IMG/VR virus record: IMGVR_UViG_3300030060_003529
Location: 1 to 20,355 of that record
Source of the DNA: a virus
Length of the DNA: 20,355 nucleotides
Reading direction: 5' to 3' (one strand)
Part shown: piece after piece, positions 2,108 to 15,616 of the stretch
How positions within the stretch are numbered: the stretch's first letter is position 1
Layout of the letters: every line of letters begins with the position of its first letter
Position numbers and translations under genes: made by a program
The notes under the pieces: generated by a model
What the model saw: only the letters and a program-made list of their open reading frames with translations
Told to the model about the DNA's origin: nothing
The model's database searches: none

Positions 2108-2181
2108 AAAAAACTTTAGCTCTGTATGCCTAGTAAATACTGGCAAACATAAAATAAATTAAAAATAATTGTGTAAAATAG

Positions 2182-2211
2182 TTGACAAATGAAAATAGTG
2201 TTGTATATTTG
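2182..2211 (+). promoter_or_regulatory. Bacteroidota-type promoter of the small cassette
   Basis: TTG at 2182-2184, a 19-base spacer, then TATATTTG at 2204-2211. This matches the Bacteroidota primary sigma consensus (TTG, about 19-21 bases, TAnnTTTG). The predicted transcription start is near 2217, about 17 bases before the ATG at 2234. It is among the clearest promoters in the window and lies in a 126-base gap after the large terminase gene. The rest of the gap holds only an imperfect stem-loop at 2127-2145 without a T tract. Confidence 0.75.
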
Positions 2212-2221
2212 ATATATCAAA
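2208..2221. promoter_or_regulatory. 14-base perfect palindrome, candidate operator
   Basis: TTTGATATATCAAA is a perfect inverted repeat with no central gap. It covers the last bases of the -7 element and the predicted transcription start. A dimeric repressor bound here would block the promoter, so an operator role is plausible. The palindrome is observed. Its function is inferred from its position, and the binding protein is unknown. Confidence 0.45.
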
Positions 2222-2233
2222 GAAACAGAAAAC

Positions 2234-2449
2234 ATGAACTACTCAAAGCAAACAATATCTTTCACTCACCACAGCGGTACAGAATACAAACAAGTTCATA
2301 TACAACAATGGAATGAAGAAGGACGCAAATCAAGAAATTACTTTTACATCAATGGTAAGAAAGTTACTAAGTACGATAGAGAGGAGTGTGAGGATATGCT
2401 TGCAAACCATCACACAGAGTACAAAGAAGAGCTTTGGGAGAAAGCATAG
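2234..2449 (+). CDS. Small unknown protein, first gene of the cassette
   Basis: A 71-residue protein I do not recognise. It is polar and mixed in charge, rich in H, K, E and Y, with no signal peptide, membrane segment or cysteine cluster. Residues about 5-45 alternate polar and hydrophobic residues as in small beta-rich folds (segments near ISFTHHSG and YFYINGKKV). The C-terminal part looks helical and acidic. The ATG is preceded by AGAAAAC, as is the next gene's ATG. It is the first gene after the 2182-2211 promoter and shares a terminator with the next gene. It could be a self-regulating or host-directed accessory protein, but nothing in the sequence shows a function. Confidence 0.6.
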   Translation: MNYSKQTISFTHHSGTEYKQVHIQQWNEEGRKSRNYFYINGKKVTKYDREECEDMLANHHTEYKEELWEKA

Positions 2450-2481
2450 GCATCAAACAAACAAACAAAAAATTAGAAAAC

Positions 2482-2700
2482 ATGGCAAGCCCGAAATTTA
2501 TGACTTTAAAGGAACTAAAGTGGAACAAGAAGATGCAAACTAACAGAATAGCACAGCTTAAAGCATCTATTGAATGCGAAGGCGCTACTTACAAGCATTT
2601 TTCTTACGAAGCTACACTAGGCACACAGTTGTACAATGCACAAAGAAACTTAGCTGCTACTGAATTTTATATTACTCATTGGGATATTAATAACCCATGA
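2482..2700 (+). CDS. Small unknown protein, second gene of the cassette
   Basis: A 72-residue protein of unknown function. I chose the ATG at 2482 over the upstream in-frame ATG at 2434 because it follows the same AGAAAAC leader as the preceding gene and avoids overlap with it. The protein looks mostly helical: a basic N-terminal half (TLKELKWNKK, NRIAQLKASIE) and an aromatic C-terminal half ending near the stop at 2698-2700. No membrane segment is visible. The intrinsic terminator begins 31 bases after the stop. A coiled-coil or small DNA-binding role is possible but not demonstrated. Confidence 0.55.
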   Translation: MASPKFMTLKELKWNKKMQTNRIAQLKASIECEGATYKHFSYEATLGTQLYNAQRNLAATEFYITHWDINNP

Positions 2701-2730
2701 TAAAAATAACAAAGTCTTACAACTAAAACT

Positions 2731-2756
2731 AAGCGCCGTTTGGCGCTTTTTTTTTT
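2731..2756 (+). terminator. Intrinsic terminator closing the cassette
   Basis: A perfect 7-bp stem (AAGCGCC at 2731-2737, GGCGCTT at 2742-2748) with a GTTT loop. The T run covers 2747-2756 and overlaps the stem end. This is the strongest intrinsic terminator in the window. It should separate the small cassette from the portal gene, so head genes would need readthrough, antitermination or a promoter of their own. Confidence 0.9.
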
Positions 2757-2768
2757 ATCTTTATAGCT

Positions 2769-2951
2769 ATGGCTGGAATGACAAATTTTGAAAAAGCTAA
2801 AGTACTTATACAAGCTTCTGACCCAGATAAGTTTTTAGGTTTTAAACTAGAAGGCGGCTGCTTACATATTTTATATGAGTTAAACAATCACCAAGAAGTA
2901 TTTATACTTAGTGAAGAAGAAGTAAACACTATAGCTGAAAGCTTTAAATAA
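2769..2951 (+). CDS. Small unknown protein upstream of the portal
   Basis: A 60-residue acidic protein I do not recognise. It lies between the terminator and the portal gene. The N-terminal part is probably helical (NFEKAKVLIQ) and is followed by a beta-like stretch (FLGFKLEGG, LHILYEL) and an acidic C-terminal helix. ATG 2769 is used here; ATG 2778, three codons later, is an alternative. No membrane segment is seen. Codon use looks like that of its neighbours. A head-morphogenesis accessory role can only be guessed from position. Confidence 0.55.
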   Translation: MAGMTNFEKAKVLIQASDPDKFLGFKLEGGCLHILYELNNHQEVFILSEEEVNTIAESFK

Positions 2952-2955
2952 GTAT

Positions 2956-2966
2956 TATATTTACAA
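2956..2966 (+). promoter_or_regulatory. TATATTTACAA motif before the portal
   Basis: An exact copy of the 11-base sequence at 44-54, ending two bases before the portal ATG. The two copies precede the first packaging gene and the portal gene, the first recognisable head gene after the terminator. That placement would suit a weak or late promoter giving a very short or leaderless transcript. No upstream TTG at normal spacing is visible, so a translation-initiation role is equally possible. Confidence 0.3.
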
Positions 2967-2968
2967 CA

Positions 2969-4159
2969 ATGTTTGAACGTCTAAGAAACTTTTTTACCAG
3001 AGCTGCTAACATAGCATATACTGGTGGGAATTGGGCGAGCTTAACGGCTGCCCAGCATAGAAGCGGCGTAAATATGAACGCCGAAAAAGCTCTAAGCGTA
3101 CCTACTGTATACGCTTGTATTTATAAGATAGCTAGTACTCTAGGAACTTTACAACTTACAGCGCTTAGGCGTGAAGGTACTGGCTCACGACCAGCTACAG
3201 AATTAAATATTTATGAGTTACTTAGCCAGTCTCCAGACGAAAACGTAACGGCATCTTTCTTCTTTGAGCAAATAATAGCTAATATGCTATTATATGGTAA
3301 AGGTTATGCGCTTATAGTTAGAAATGTAGATACTGGTTTGCCACAGCGTTTAGAGTTTATACCTAGCAAAGCAGTAAAGCTATTAGATTACGACGGTACA
3401 GAGGTCTACGAAATAGATGGTATTGAAGGCGTAGTATTTAGCGATGATATTTTATGTATACCTTATCTATTAGGAGCTTCACCAATAGACCTACACGCCG
3501 AAACATTTGGCCTAGCCAAAGCAGCTGAACGCTACGCCGCAGAGTACTTTAATAACGGGTCAATAATGACTGGCGTATTATCTAGCGACCAGCCATTAAA
3601 AAAAGAGCAACTTGATATAGTTAGAGACAGTTGGAACGCTTCGAGCGCTGGTAACCTTACTAGGGTACTACCAGCTGGCTTTAAGTATGACCGTATAGCA
3701 CTAAGCCCAGATGAAGCGCAAAATATTGAAAGCCGTAAAATGAGCGCAGAAGATATAGCAAGGATATACAATGTGCCAGCTGCTTTAATTGGTTTAGAGG
3801 GAAACTTTACATACTCAAATACAGAGCAAGCTGGAATATTCTTTGCAAAGCATACTATACTACCTATAGCGAGACGTATAGAGCAAGAAATAGAAAATAA
3901 GCTACTTACGCCACAGCAAAGAGTAAACTACTTTGTACGCTTTAATATCGACGACTTGATGCGCGGCGACCTAAAAACTAGAGCCGACTACTACAATACT
4001 TTATTACAAGCGGGCGTACTTACAGCTAACGAAGTAAGAAGCCAAGAAAATCTACCTACTATAGAAGGTGGAGATGCTTTACGTATTCCAGTAAATGTAA
4101 TTAGCGCTAGTAAGTTTGAAGCTTACAGCGAAAAAATTAGTACTAATGGCGTACAGTAA
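2969..4159 (+). CDS. Portal protein, HK97 family
   Basis: A 396-residue portal that forms the ring at one capsid vertex through which DNA enters and to which the tail attaches. Family features include an N-terminal VPTVYACIYKIAST segment near residues 44-57 and a helical FFFEQIIANMLLYGKGYA segment around residue 100. The signature MSAEDIARIYNVPAALIG begins at residue 258 and is followed by YSNTEQ and a helix running to IEQEIENKLL. The length is typical of HK97-type portals. The gene follows the terminase genes as usual, but with a cassette inserted between. Its 3' end overlaps the next gene by 14 bases. Confidence 0.95.
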   Translation: MFERLRNFFTRAANIAYTGGNWASLTAAQHRSGVNMNAEKALSVPTVYACIYKIASTLGTLQLTALRREGTGSRPATELNIYELLSQSPDENVTASFFFEQIIANMLLYGKGYALIVRNVDTGLPQRLEFIPSKAVKLLDYDGTEVYEIDGIEGVVFSDDILCIPYLLGASPIDLHAETFGLAKAAERYAAEYFNNGSIMTGVLSSDQPLKKEQLDIVRDSWNASSAGNLTRVLPAGFKYDRIALSPDEAQNIESRKMSAEDIARIYNVPAALIGLEGNFTYSNTEQAGIFFAKHTILPIARRIEQEIENKLLTPQQRVNYFVRFNIDDLMRGDLKTRADYYNTLLQAGVLTANEVRSQENLPTIEGGDALRIPVNVISASKFEAYSEKISTNGVQ

Positions 4160-6962
4160 TTACCCACAAACGGCTGTCAATGCAGCTAAGAGAGCTTTAA
4201 AGCATAAAGAAGAATACGGCTCTAAATGTGGTACTACTGTAGGCTGGCGCTCTGCTGGTATAATATCAAAAAAAGAGCCTCTTACTTTAGATAGGCTTAA
4301 AAGGGTTTTTAGCTTTTTATCGAGGGCAAAAGTTTACGATACGGGTAAATTTTTAAATGACGGTAAAGAAGTTTGTGGCTCTGTAATGTATGCAGCTTGG
4401 GGCGGTACTACTATGCTTAGATGGGCTAGAAAAGAATTAGAGAAACTAGAGAAAGAAGAGCGCCAAGAAATAACTGGCAAAGCCAAAACTGCTTTAGAAA
4501 ACAAAGTAGAGGAACATAACGAGAGTGTACAATCTGATGTACGCAAAACTAATCTAAGGACTCTTAGCGCAGTATTTAAGCGTGGTATAGGAGCCTACAA
4601 AACAAATCCAGAAAGCGTTAGGCCAAGTGTAAAAAGCCCGGAACAGTGGGCGATGGCTAGAGTCAATAGCTTTTTGTACGCCTTAAAAAATGATAAGTTC
4701 CGTAGCGGTAAGCACGATACGGATTTATTTCCAGACGGGCATAAACTTAAAAGTAAAATGGAAGAAGATAATAAAGAGCGTGCGCGAGTTGGCATGGTTG
4801 ACGGCGTACCAGTTTACGACAATAAAGAACAAGCTGAAGAAGCAGCTGAAAAGCTAGGCTGTAGCGGTTCACATTCTATGGAATTAGAAGGTAAGACCGT
4901 TTATATGCCTTGCTCTAGTCATAGCGGAGCCACTGACGACGATAACGGCAACGGATATAGACAAGCTGAAGGCGTAGTACATAAGCGTACACTGCCCGCA
5001 GATTTTGAACTAAGAGAATCTAAGAAGGGTAGCACTATTGTAGGATATGCAGCTGTATTCAATACAGAAACGCAGATAGGCAACTTTAGAGAGCAAATTG
5101 CTCCAGAGGCTTTCAATAGAGCGCTTACAGAGTCTCCCGATGTAGTTGCATTATTGAATCACGATAGAAATTTTGTACTTGGTAGAACTACAAGCGATAC
5201 GCTAAAATTAAGCGTAGACGAGCGCGGCTTAAAGTATGAGCTGAAGTTAGGAAACCAAACCTACGCTAAAGACTTAGCCGAAAGTATGCGACGTGGCGAT
5301 ATATCACAAAGTTCTTTTGCGTTTACTATAGAGCGCGAAAGCTGGGAAGATGATTTAAGAACTGTTGAAGAGGTACGCGGTCTTTACGATGTTTCTGTTG
5401 TGACGGTCCCAGCGTATGCAGAAGCTAGCGCAACTATAAGAGCTAAAGAAAGCTGTGGCTGTAAAAAAGAAGAAATTAAAAATGCTACTGTAGTAGAAAA
5501 AAAATCTGCTCCAGAAGTTCGTGCAACTAGCACACCAAAAAAAAAAATTAAAAATAAATTTAAGATGAAAAAATCGGACCAATTAAAAAGCCTACGTAGC
5601 AATAAGCTAGTAGAGCTAAATGCTTTGGTGGAGGTTGCTGAAACTGAAGCTAGAGATTATACAGAAGCAGAGCTAACTCGCCAAGAGCAGCTTAATTCTG
5701 ATATTGCTGAACTTGATAAGTCTATCGAGAGAGCAGAAACTACAGAGAATAACGTAAAGCGTCATGCTAACGTAAATGCTACACCAAAAGGCGAAGCTGT
5801 AGAAATGAACAAAATGAATAAGCGTTACGATATGGGTAAAGCCCTACGCGAAGCAGCTCAAGGCCGTTTATCTGGACTAGAGCAAGAGATACACCAAGAG
5901 GCTCTAAGAGAGGCTTCTGCTTTCGGTATCCAGCTTAGAGGTAACGTATGTATTCCACAATCTTTTGTTGAAAAGCGTAACGTATATGGCAACGATGCTT
6001 CTGGTACACCAGATACAGCTGTAGGTACTGCTGGAACTGAGGCTGCTGAAGTAGCTCCATCTCTAAGAGCTACACCAGTTATACAAGAGCTAGGTGCTAC
6101 ACAGCTAACTGGATTTGTTGGTGATGTAAAGCTACCAAGCTTACCAAACGACAAAGCAAGCTTACCAGCTGAGGCTGCTAATGCTACTGCTTTCTCTGGT
6201 TCTATGTCAAGCGTTACTTTATCTCCACAGCGTTTCGCTGCTGAGATGACTATTACTAAAGAAGCTCTTAACCAAGCTACTGGTAATATGCAAGACGTTA
6301 TAGCTAGAGATTTCTCTGTAGCTATCGGTAACTCTATTGACCGCTACGCTTTCGCTAAGATTTGTAACGGATCTGTAGAAGGTACACAGCTAGCGCTAGT
6401 ACCAACAAACTCTGAATTTGGAGCTGGACAAGGTACACTAGTAAAGGCTGTTGAAACTGGTACTAACGACTTATTAGCTGTAGATACTGCTGCTGTTATG
6501 AACCTTTGGGCTGATATTACTGGTAATGGTATTGGAGACAACGCTGCTTTCGTAATGTCTCCAGCTGTAGCGGGTGCGTTAATGCAAGCTAACGTAACTG
6601 GTGCTGGAGGGCCAGCTGCTTTAGTAGGTAATAACCTAATGGGTTACAACGCACGTTGGACATCTAATATACCTACAGTAACTGGTACTAACATTCACGC
6701 AGACGCAGTATTAACTGGTGGAGCTGCTGATGTAGACTTAGGAGCTGGTTTTGTTTCTTCTGTAATGTTCTACGGAGACTTCTCGCAGTTATTCTGGTGT
6801 CAATGGGGCGGCTACTCGCTAACTGTTGACCCATTCAGCGGAGCTTCAGCTGGAACTGTTAAGTTAGTTGCAGATAACTATTTCGATGTAGGTTTACGCG
6901 ATTCTGGTGCTATTGGTTACATGTTAGCAAACGCTACAAACGTACTTGGAGCAGATAGCTAA
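4146..6962 (+). CDS. Fused accessory modules, prohead protease and major capsid protein
   Basis: A single 938-codon frame with four parts. Residues 1-105 form a small module (NAAKRALKHKEE, CGTTVGW, FSFLSRAKVYD, YAAWGG). Residues 138-260 form a second module (GAYKTNPESVRPSV, FRSGKHDTDL, then a CSGSH/CSSH pair at 239-243 and 256-259 that could bind metal). Residues 281-432 are an S78-type prohead protease with probable catalytic H339 (LLNHD) and S390 (QSSFAF), plus D415 in LYDVSVVTVPAY. Residues 474-938 are an HK97-fold capsid protein with an N-terminal coiled-coil delta region. The ATG at 4146 is preferred to the upstream TTG at 4116. The fusion passes through an A11 tract at 5537-5547, and a shift either way would stop the protease at or just before the capsid start. 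Whether the fused product is real is open. The protease and capsid assignments are firm. Confidence 0.85.
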   Translation: MAYSNYPQTAVNAAKRALKHKEEYGSKCGTTVGWRSAGIISKKEPLTLDRLKRVFSFLSRAKVYDTGKFLNDGKEVCGSVMYAAWGGTTMLRWARKELEKLEKEERQEITGKAKTALENKVEEHNESVQSDVRKTNLRTLSAVFKRGIGAYKTNPESVRPSVKSPEQWAMARVNSFLYALKNDKFRSGKHDTDLFPDGHKLKSKMEEDNKERARVGMVDGVPVYDNKEQAEEAAEKLGCSGSHSMELEGKTVYMPCSSHSGATDDDNGNGYRQAEGVVHKRTLPADFELRESKKGSTIVGYAAVFNTETQIGNFREQIAPEAFNRALTESPDVVALLNHDRNFVLGRTTSDTLKLSVDERGLKYELKLGNQTYAKDLAESMRRGDISQSSFAFTIERESWEDDLRTVEEVRGLYDVSVVTVPAYAEASATIRAKESCGCKKEEIKNATVVEKKSAPEVRATSTPKKKIKNKFKMKKSDQLKSLRSNKLVELNALVEVAETEARDYTEAELTRQEQLNSDIAELDKSIERAETTENNVKRHANVNATPKGEAVEMNKMNKRYDMGKALREAAQGRLSGLEQEIHQEALREASAFGIQLRGNVCIPQSFVEKRNVYGNDASGTPDTAVGTAGTEAAEVAPSLRATPVIQELGATQLTGFVGDVKLPSLPNDKASLPAEAANATAFSGSMSSVTLSPQRFAAEMTITKEALNQATGNMQDVIARDFSVAIGNSIDRYAFAKICNGSVEGTQLALVPTNSEFGAGQGTLVKAVETGTNDLLAVDTAAVMNLWADITGNGIGDNAAFVMSPAVAGALMQANVTGAGGPAALVGNNLMGYNARWTSNIPTVTGTNIHADAVLTGGAADVDLGAGFVSSVMFYGDFSQLFWCQWGGYSLTVDPFSGASAGTVKLVADNYFDVGLRDSGAIGYMLANATNVLGADS
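5537..5547 (+). other. A11 slippery tract at the protease/capsid junction
   Basis: Eleven consecutive A residues lie 17 bases upstream of an ATG (5565) that would start the capsid domain. In frame the ribosome reads through to the capsid. A -1 shift reaches TAA within two codons. A +1 shift reads to a TGA that overlaps the 5565 ATG as ATGA, the overlap type used elsewhere in this genome. Runs of this length are known to support transcriptional slippage and are also common places for assembly indels. Confidence 0.5.
5565..6962 (+). CDS. Major capsid protein, HK97 gp5 family (possible internal start)
   Basis: The capsid part alone would be 465 residues starting at ATG 5565. Residues 1-90 are a charged coiled coil (LRSNKLVELNALVEVAETEA, then LDKSIERAE) like the HK97 delta/scaffold domain that the protease removes. 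The remainder resembles HK97-fold shells: a VAPSLRATPVIQELGAT segment, PSLPNDKASLPAEA, LSPQRFAAEMTITKEALNQA, then a C-terminal FYGDFSQLFWCQWGG segment. The leader before 5565 (AAAATAAATTTAAG) has the A/T-rich form seen before other starts here. Independent translation is therefore plausible even though the frame is open upstream. The capsid assignment is firm; the separate start is inferred. Confidence 0.6.
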   Translation: MKKSDQLKSLRSNKLVELNALVEVAETEARDYTEAELTRQEQLNSDIAELDKSIERAETTENNVKRHANVNATPKGEAVEMNKMNKRYDMGKALREAAQGRLSGLEQEIHQEALREASAFGIQLRGNVCIPQSFVEKRNVYGNDASGTPDTAVGTAGTEAAEVAPSLRATPVIQELGATQLTGFVGDVKLPSLPNDKASLPAEAANATAFSGSMSSVTLSPQRFAAEMTITKEALNQATGNMQDVIARDFSVAIGNSIDRYAFAKICNGSVEGTQLALVPTNSEFGAGQGTLVKAVETGTNDLLAVDTAAVMNLWADITGNGIGDNAAFVMSPAVAGALMQANVTGAGGPAALVGNNLMGYNARWTSNIPTVTGTNIHADAVLTGGAADVDLGAGFVSSVMFYGDFSQLFWCQWGGYSLTVDPFSGASAGTVKLVADNYFDVGLRDSGAIGYMLANATNVLGADS

Positions 6963-15463: not shown

Positions 15464-15616
15464 ATGGATTGGCTAGAAAAATCAAATAATAATCACACAA
15501 TATCAGACCTACCAGCTAGGCCGACACAAAACCAAATAAATACAAAAATAAATGAGCTAATAGGTAAAGTTAATGATTTGATGGCGCTTATTGTAAGCGA
15601 AAATACAAGGCTATGA
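15464..15616 (+). CDS. Small helical protein between tail tip and lysis genes
   Basis: A 50-residue protein starting at ATG 15464, five bases after the tail-tip stop, and ending in an ATGA overlap with the amidase. The sequence is polar, with TISDLPARPTQNQINTKINE followed by a helical LIGKVNDLMALIVSE that looks like a short coiled coil. Tight packing on both sides favours a real gene. It may act as a small tail-tip accessory or with the lysis genes. I know of no clear family. Confidence 0.6.
   Translation: MDWLEKSNNNHTISDLPARPTQNQINTKINELIGKVNDLMALIVSENTRL

Follow-up and report, generated by a model that had tools for sequence, protein, structure and literature searches.

A prohead protease–capsid fusion gene with a conserved internal capsid start codon: a candidate nested gene of tailed phages

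Results

Protease and capsid share one open frame

The window (the whole 20,355-nucleotide stretch of viral DNA analysed here, IMG/VR record IMGVR_UViG_3300030060_003529) carries on its plus strand a single uninterrupted frame of 948 codons, ORF 4116..6962, which contains both a protease and a capsid protein. The gene likely starts at ATG 4146, inside the 3' end of the portal gene (2969..4159). Its features are as follows, with residues numbered along the 948-residue frame unless given as model residues:

4146..6962, + strand: fused gene of 938 aa, counted from its likely start at ATG 4146; upstream of this codon the frame stays open back to TTG 4116
4146..6962, + strand: order of parts, N-terminal domains, S78 prohead protease, linker, delta scaffold, HK97-fold capsid
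4410..4697, + strand: DUF5824 match, residues 99-194 (Pfam 1.1e-5, 26 bits with the cut-off at 25)
4815..4925, + strand: DUF3721 match, residues 234-270 (Pfam 1.6e-10)
5007..5450, + strand: Peptidase_S78 prohead protease, residues 298-445 (Pfam 5.4e-47)
5451..5564, + strand: variable linker of low conservation, predicted disordered (pLDDT <50 at model residues 154-195)
5537..5547, + strand: A11 tract, private to this genome (letters and comparison with relatives)
5550..5564, + strand: leader of the internal start, with A at -15 to -11 (5550-5554) and -3 (5562)
5565..5567, + strand: in-frame internal ATG, inferred capsid start codon, aligned with the capsid starts of split relatives and present in 26/26 fused clade A loci
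5565..6962, + strand: predicted nested product of 465 aa, delta domain plus capsid (Phage_capsid 2.7e-15 when searched by itself)
5574..5777, + strand: delta scaffold helices, model residues 198-265 (weak AlphaFold model)
6045..6914, + strand: HK97-fold capsid domain (Phage_capsid), residues 644-933 (Pfam 7.5e-15)

The ORF call and the Pfam matches thus place an S78 protease and an HK97-fold capsid protein in one open frame. Two PHROG families, phrog_617 and phrog_10, are annotated as 'major head protein' and have matches that cover both the protease and the capsid part, so that such fusions are already present in the PHROG library.

Several fused relatives (L005, L010-L017, L019, L021, L107 and L110) keep the N-terminal domain but lack, by profile, the DUF5824 region (window 4410-4697), which is therefore dispensable for the fusion. 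Around the same region lies the sole match that the fused gene has at the DNA level when the phage collection is searched in distant mode. It is with Roseobacter phages CRP-821 and CRP-822 (71.8% over 174 nt, window 4569-4742 against L002:4001-4174); the capsid parts are distant despite this match. At L075:2555-5035, and alike in L076 and L077, it is the portal that is fused to DUF3721, a weak DUF5824 match and the N-terminal domain found ahead of the window's protease; the L075 protease lies in a frame of its own. It seems that these domains can change partner between portal and protease.

The fusion is conserved among relatives

The first-pass annotation had left it to related phages to tell whether the open frame is conserved. 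In the closest relatives (L003, L004 and L005, best segments 95, 94 and 91% identical to the window) the junction aligns without indels and the same frame is open, with A-runs of 5, 8 and 8 at the tract. A search with the capsid part only, using a profile built from nine fused members, yielded 27 loci. All 25 that span the junction are fused, seven of these being contigs already read under earlier locus names; L026 and L112 end short of the junction and were left out of the count. The linker, from the PAY motif of the protease to the boundary Met, measures 35-51 residues and is in frame in all 26 genes; read in either of the remaining frames, the same linkers contain 52 and 87 stops. Judged by these alignments, the fusion is genuine and no sequencing artefact, as the first of three outcomes listed by the first-pass annotation had it, and the frame has been kept through a linker that varies in length and sequence.

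We built a tree of 55 de-replicated capsid domains, leaving out L100-L102 (long branch) and L026 and L112, with the labels fused and split set by hand from the locus readings. All fused genes of the window's type, 17 in number, group in a single clade (support 100/100), here called clade A. Another type of fusion, whose S78 domain is divergent and confirmed by Pfam for five members, makes up a clade of 15 (97/95), clade B. The 23 capsids in frames without a protease, a class that rests on frame room as these frames are too short for a protease, fall outside both fused clades. The tree is compatible with one origin of the fusion. A capsid-profile search of cellular genomes found no relative. 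Clade A can be called Bacteroidota-like on the strength of its lack of Shine-Dalgarno signals and a distant similarity to Cellulophaga phage phi39:1.

The internal ATG corresponds to a former capsid start

We read 17 split loci in detail. In 14 of them the first capsid ATG lies 16-26 nt past the protease stop, the spacing in the remaining three being 4, -4 and -11 nt. Their proteases end in residues such as KNKF, KNKY or INKK, and their capsid proteins start with MKTS or MKNS. The window junction reads IKNKF-K-MKKSDQLK, so that ATG 5565 is the counterpart of the start codon of a separate capsid gene. This bears out the view of the first-pass annotation that this ATG fits a capsid start, and the fusion looks like the result of a lost stop and spacer.

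The border ATG is retained in 26/26 fused clade A loci, while the residue before it varies between K, L, N, T and H; boundary starts were selected by alignment and not blindly, and members within one clade are not independent of each other. It marks the junction of the variable linker with the conserved scaffold helix. An AlphaFold model of residues 290-948, built from 18 aligned sequences, is weak (mean pLDDT 59.9, pTM 0.38), and we took from it no more than the order in which disorder and helix follow one another. In it, disorder covers model residues 154-195, up to and including the internal Met (195), and helices follow at 198-221 and 228-265. Alignments and model together place a conserved in-frame start at a domain border, and a protein made from it would open with the first delta helix. 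Among solved structures, a profile search returned three capsid sequences and no protease.

Clade A internal starts have A-rich, open leaders

The leader of the internal ATG is rich in A and T. For the 20 nt ahead of it, in each of the nine nearest genes, 0-5 of ~596 control positions in the protease-capsid part reach the same AT content, and over the whole frame the fraction is <=0.010. Predicted RNA openness at the ATG is in the top 7% in all 19 de-replicated clade A genes. An A stands at -12 in 18 of these 19 (25/26 loci), as against 29% A at first codon positions. According to the parts of a study of Flavobacterium johnsoniae consulted here (PMC6847099), A at -3, -6, -12 and -13, together with a run from -14 to -11, promotes initiation. 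The window's internal start has A at -3 and at -15 to -11 but not at -6, and the A-run before the internal starts resembles Flavobacterium starts.

This picture agrees with how these genomes start their other genes. None of the window's own 22 gene starts carries a strong Shine-Dalgarno sequence and their mean pairing is weaker than in shuffled sequence, the latter being true of 13/13 clade A records. Most positions show stronger Shine-Dalgarno pairing than the clade A internal start (mean fraction 0.87).

Several observations count against a nested reading, in which the internal ATG would also serve as a start codon. Only 9/19 clade A genes have A at -3 and 5/19 at -6, and in the L006-L021 group the ATG follows CAC, hence C at -3, and AT content is moderate. 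Under synonymous recoding, with a fraction <0.05 taken as unusual, AT-richness is unusual in 6/19 clade A genes (L006, L007, L014, L108, L109 and L110) and openness in 2/19 (L014 and L108). For the window the fractions are 0.11 for AT-richness and 0.54 for openness. The AT-richness of its leader is largely explained by its amino acids, because Lys and Asn codons account for most of it.

A second clade keeps the start with a Shine-Dalgarno signal

Clade B includes Roseobacter phages in the tree, e.g. CRP-821 and CRP-831, and has Vibrio, Escherichia and Pseudomonas phages among its members. By similarity it also takes in VP882, ECOO78, Persinger, PPpW-3, Alexa and MQ-4; VP882, ECOO78, Persinger, Alexa, MQ-4, CRP-406 and CRP-811 are assigned by similarity and not by the tree. 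A start codon, picked by alignment to the delta domain among candidate starts, stands at the linker/delta border in all 34 clade B loci examined. It is ATG in 32 and GTG in two, L032 and L058, which look like near copies, so that the GTG is probably one event. In CRP-406 the boundary Met is residue 356.

In 21 of 22 de-replicated or isolate clade B genes an AGG begins 10-14 nt upstream of this start; MQ-4 lacks it. The motif occupies all three codon phases (17, 3 and 1 genes) and is encoded within differing residues (KENN-M, RSDP-M, EAHQ-M, KVEI-M and RGAE-M). Pairing is stronger than the synonymous-recoding mean in 22/22 genes, with a fraction <0.1 in nine. Against a nested reading, the other 13 do not differ from their recodings at 0.1, and 53 of 460 other in-frame ATGs in clade B genes pair as strongly as the gene's own boundary start. 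CRP-811 has a GTG and an ATG with close pairing at codons 333-334, and a TTG with equal pairing at codon 460. At the gene starts of clade B, mean anti-Shine-Dalgarno pairing exceeds that of shuffled sequence in 14/14 records, by a small margin in VP882 and ECOO78.

An initiation signal at the internal start is thus seen for both clades taken together, the recoding fractions of the window alone being those given above. That the signal in each clade appears to be of its own genome's type is the strongest argument for ribosomes starting at the border.

The fused gene of Roseobacter phage CRP-823 is entered as two overlapping 'major capsid protein' genes (L087:1456-2172 and 2132-4384), which suggests a frameshift in the record or in the phage.

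Discussion

Tailed phages need hundreds of capsid subunits and few protease molecules, and the protease must sit inside the prohead. Fusing protease and capsid would seem to spoil this ratio. We consider it probable, from the comparisons above, that the window gene is a nested gene that gives few protease–capsid fusions and many capsid proteins. Ribosomes starting at ATG 4146 would make the 938-aa fusion, and ribosomes starting at ATG 5565 in the same frame would make the 465-aa capsid with its delta scaffold alone. Internal initiation would supply most capsid subunits. The rarer fusion would enter the prohead via its own delta/capsid part and carry the protease inside, where it would remove the delta domains and itself. 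The synthesis of both products, their ratio, their co-assembly and the cleavage are what we infer; comparison establishes the conserved fusion, the correspondence of ATG 5565 to real capsid starts and the genome-type signals in two clades.

The main alternative is a polyprotein. Here, every subunit would be made as a fusion and freed by the built-in protease, with the internal Met a relic of the former gene start. The conserved open frame fits this, as a single translation product would suffice. So does the composition of the window's leader, which owes much to its amino acids, and a 'tripartite capsid gene' has been named for Gifsy-2, in a title cited by PMC8814770. However, a relic would not be expected to remain Met in 26/26 loci next to changing residues, to be replaced by GTG only, in clade B, or to keep an AGG in shifting codon phase. 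A polyprotein would also give one protease per capsid subunit. We regard it as improbable.

The first-pass annotation had instead looked to the A11 tract. Its reading of the letters holds: protease and capsid form one frame across 5537-5547, ATG 5565 lies in frame 17 nt past the tract, and the other frames stop at TAA 5549 (-1) and TGA 5566 (+1). Its remark that the resulting ATGA overlap is exactly the type used by neighbours was overstated, as this 4-nt type occurs at 15613/15616 and 401/404 but five neighbouring pairs overlap by 1 nt (7758, 8084, 10177, 16438 and 17418). It proposed, as one of its outcomes, that slippage on the tract yields protease alone, and the stops in both other frames after the tract would allow this. 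However, the closest relatives carry only 5, 8 and 8 A there, and in the other 25 loci the 45 nt upstream of the start hold a longest A-run of 3-8, against 11 in the window, so that no slippery run is conserved at the junction among the 26 fused loci compared. A run of this length is also ordinary in this composition: 17% of 300 Markov-1 sequences of window composition contain an A or T run >=11, and the window also contains A10 and T10. A11 is unremarkable here, and what exceeds chance, as far as the relatives tell, is that the open frame and an in-frame start are conserved, rather than the tract itself. Slippage is thus very improbable. Of the second outcome that the first-pass annotation listed, the internal capsid start is well supported by comparison, and its idea that a protease-to-capsid ratio would be set in this way still stands, although by internal initiation rather than slippage. 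For the nested gene the tract is incidental, and no protease-only frame is needed. The third outcome, a homopolymer miscount in a genome that really has two genes, draws on homopolymers being error-prone in principle and on the existence of split relatives, but it is scarcely credible for the window and already refuted for the clade, as relatives with shorter, broken A-runs share the junction length and open frame and 17/17 de-replicated clade rows are fused.

Protease–capsid fusions as such are already known, from the annotation of PPpW-3 and the Gifsy-2 title. PPpW-3 ORF-5, VP882 gp07 and CRP-406/811/821/831 have, like the window, an S78 protease, linker, delta scaffold and HK97-fold capsid in one frame with a start codon at the linker/delta border; among these isolates S78 (peptidase U35) is confirmed by Pfam only for PPpW-3 and CRP-821. 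They differ from the window in their divergent S78 domain, their Shine-Dalgarno leader and their separate clade, and they are annotated as one capsid product. Gifsy-2 reportedly has protease, scaffold and capsid in one gene, like the window, but with a protease said to be of ClpP type rather than S78 (work attributed to Effantin et al. 2010). Phage 7-7-1 has separate genes according to the printed excerpt. The CRP phage paper (PMC12629253), which reports purified CRP-406 and CRP-822, does not use the words 'protease' or 'fusion' in its main text. Among the matches listed in the open-licence literature, covering titles and abstract openings, we found no description of a nested capsid start in a protease–capsid fusion.

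HK97 has an S78-type protease, gp4, and a capsid protein, gp5, in two separate genes. Lambda C/Nu3 fuses a protease, unrelated to S78, to a structural protein, and its nested in-frame product, likely there for stoichiometry, is the scaffold. The HK97 capsid protein has an N-terminal delta domain (PMC10275583, excerpt). HK97 resembles the window in its S78-type protease and delta-bearing capsid and differs in using two genes. Herpesvirus UL80/UL80.5 is a nested pair for which stoichiometry is given as the likely reason in the excerpt consulted (PMC9732275). As described there, it shares with the window a protease fused to a structural protein and a nested in-frame product with the structural part alone; unlike in the window, this product is the scaffold and not the capsid, UL80.5 has its own transcript and the protease is unrelated.

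Beyond the window gene, we lean, with some reserve, towards fused S78 protease–capsid genes of tailed phages being generally nested, with an internal start in at least two clades that uses the genome's own type of signal, A-rich without Shine-Dalgarno in Bacteroidota-like phages and Shine-Dalgarno in phages of Proteobacteria. The two clades would then offer a natural comparison, one internal start kept under two kinds of bacterial initiation.

Taken together, an internal start would restore the ratio of protease to capsid and place the protease inside the prohead with one gene. If this is true, database entries of 'major capsid protein' with 632-974 residues are dual-product genes whose main product starts deep inside, with consequences for annotation, structure work and predicted capsid mass. 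Such genes would be a phage counterpart of herpesvirus protease–scaffold nesting, but with the capsid protein itself as the nested product.
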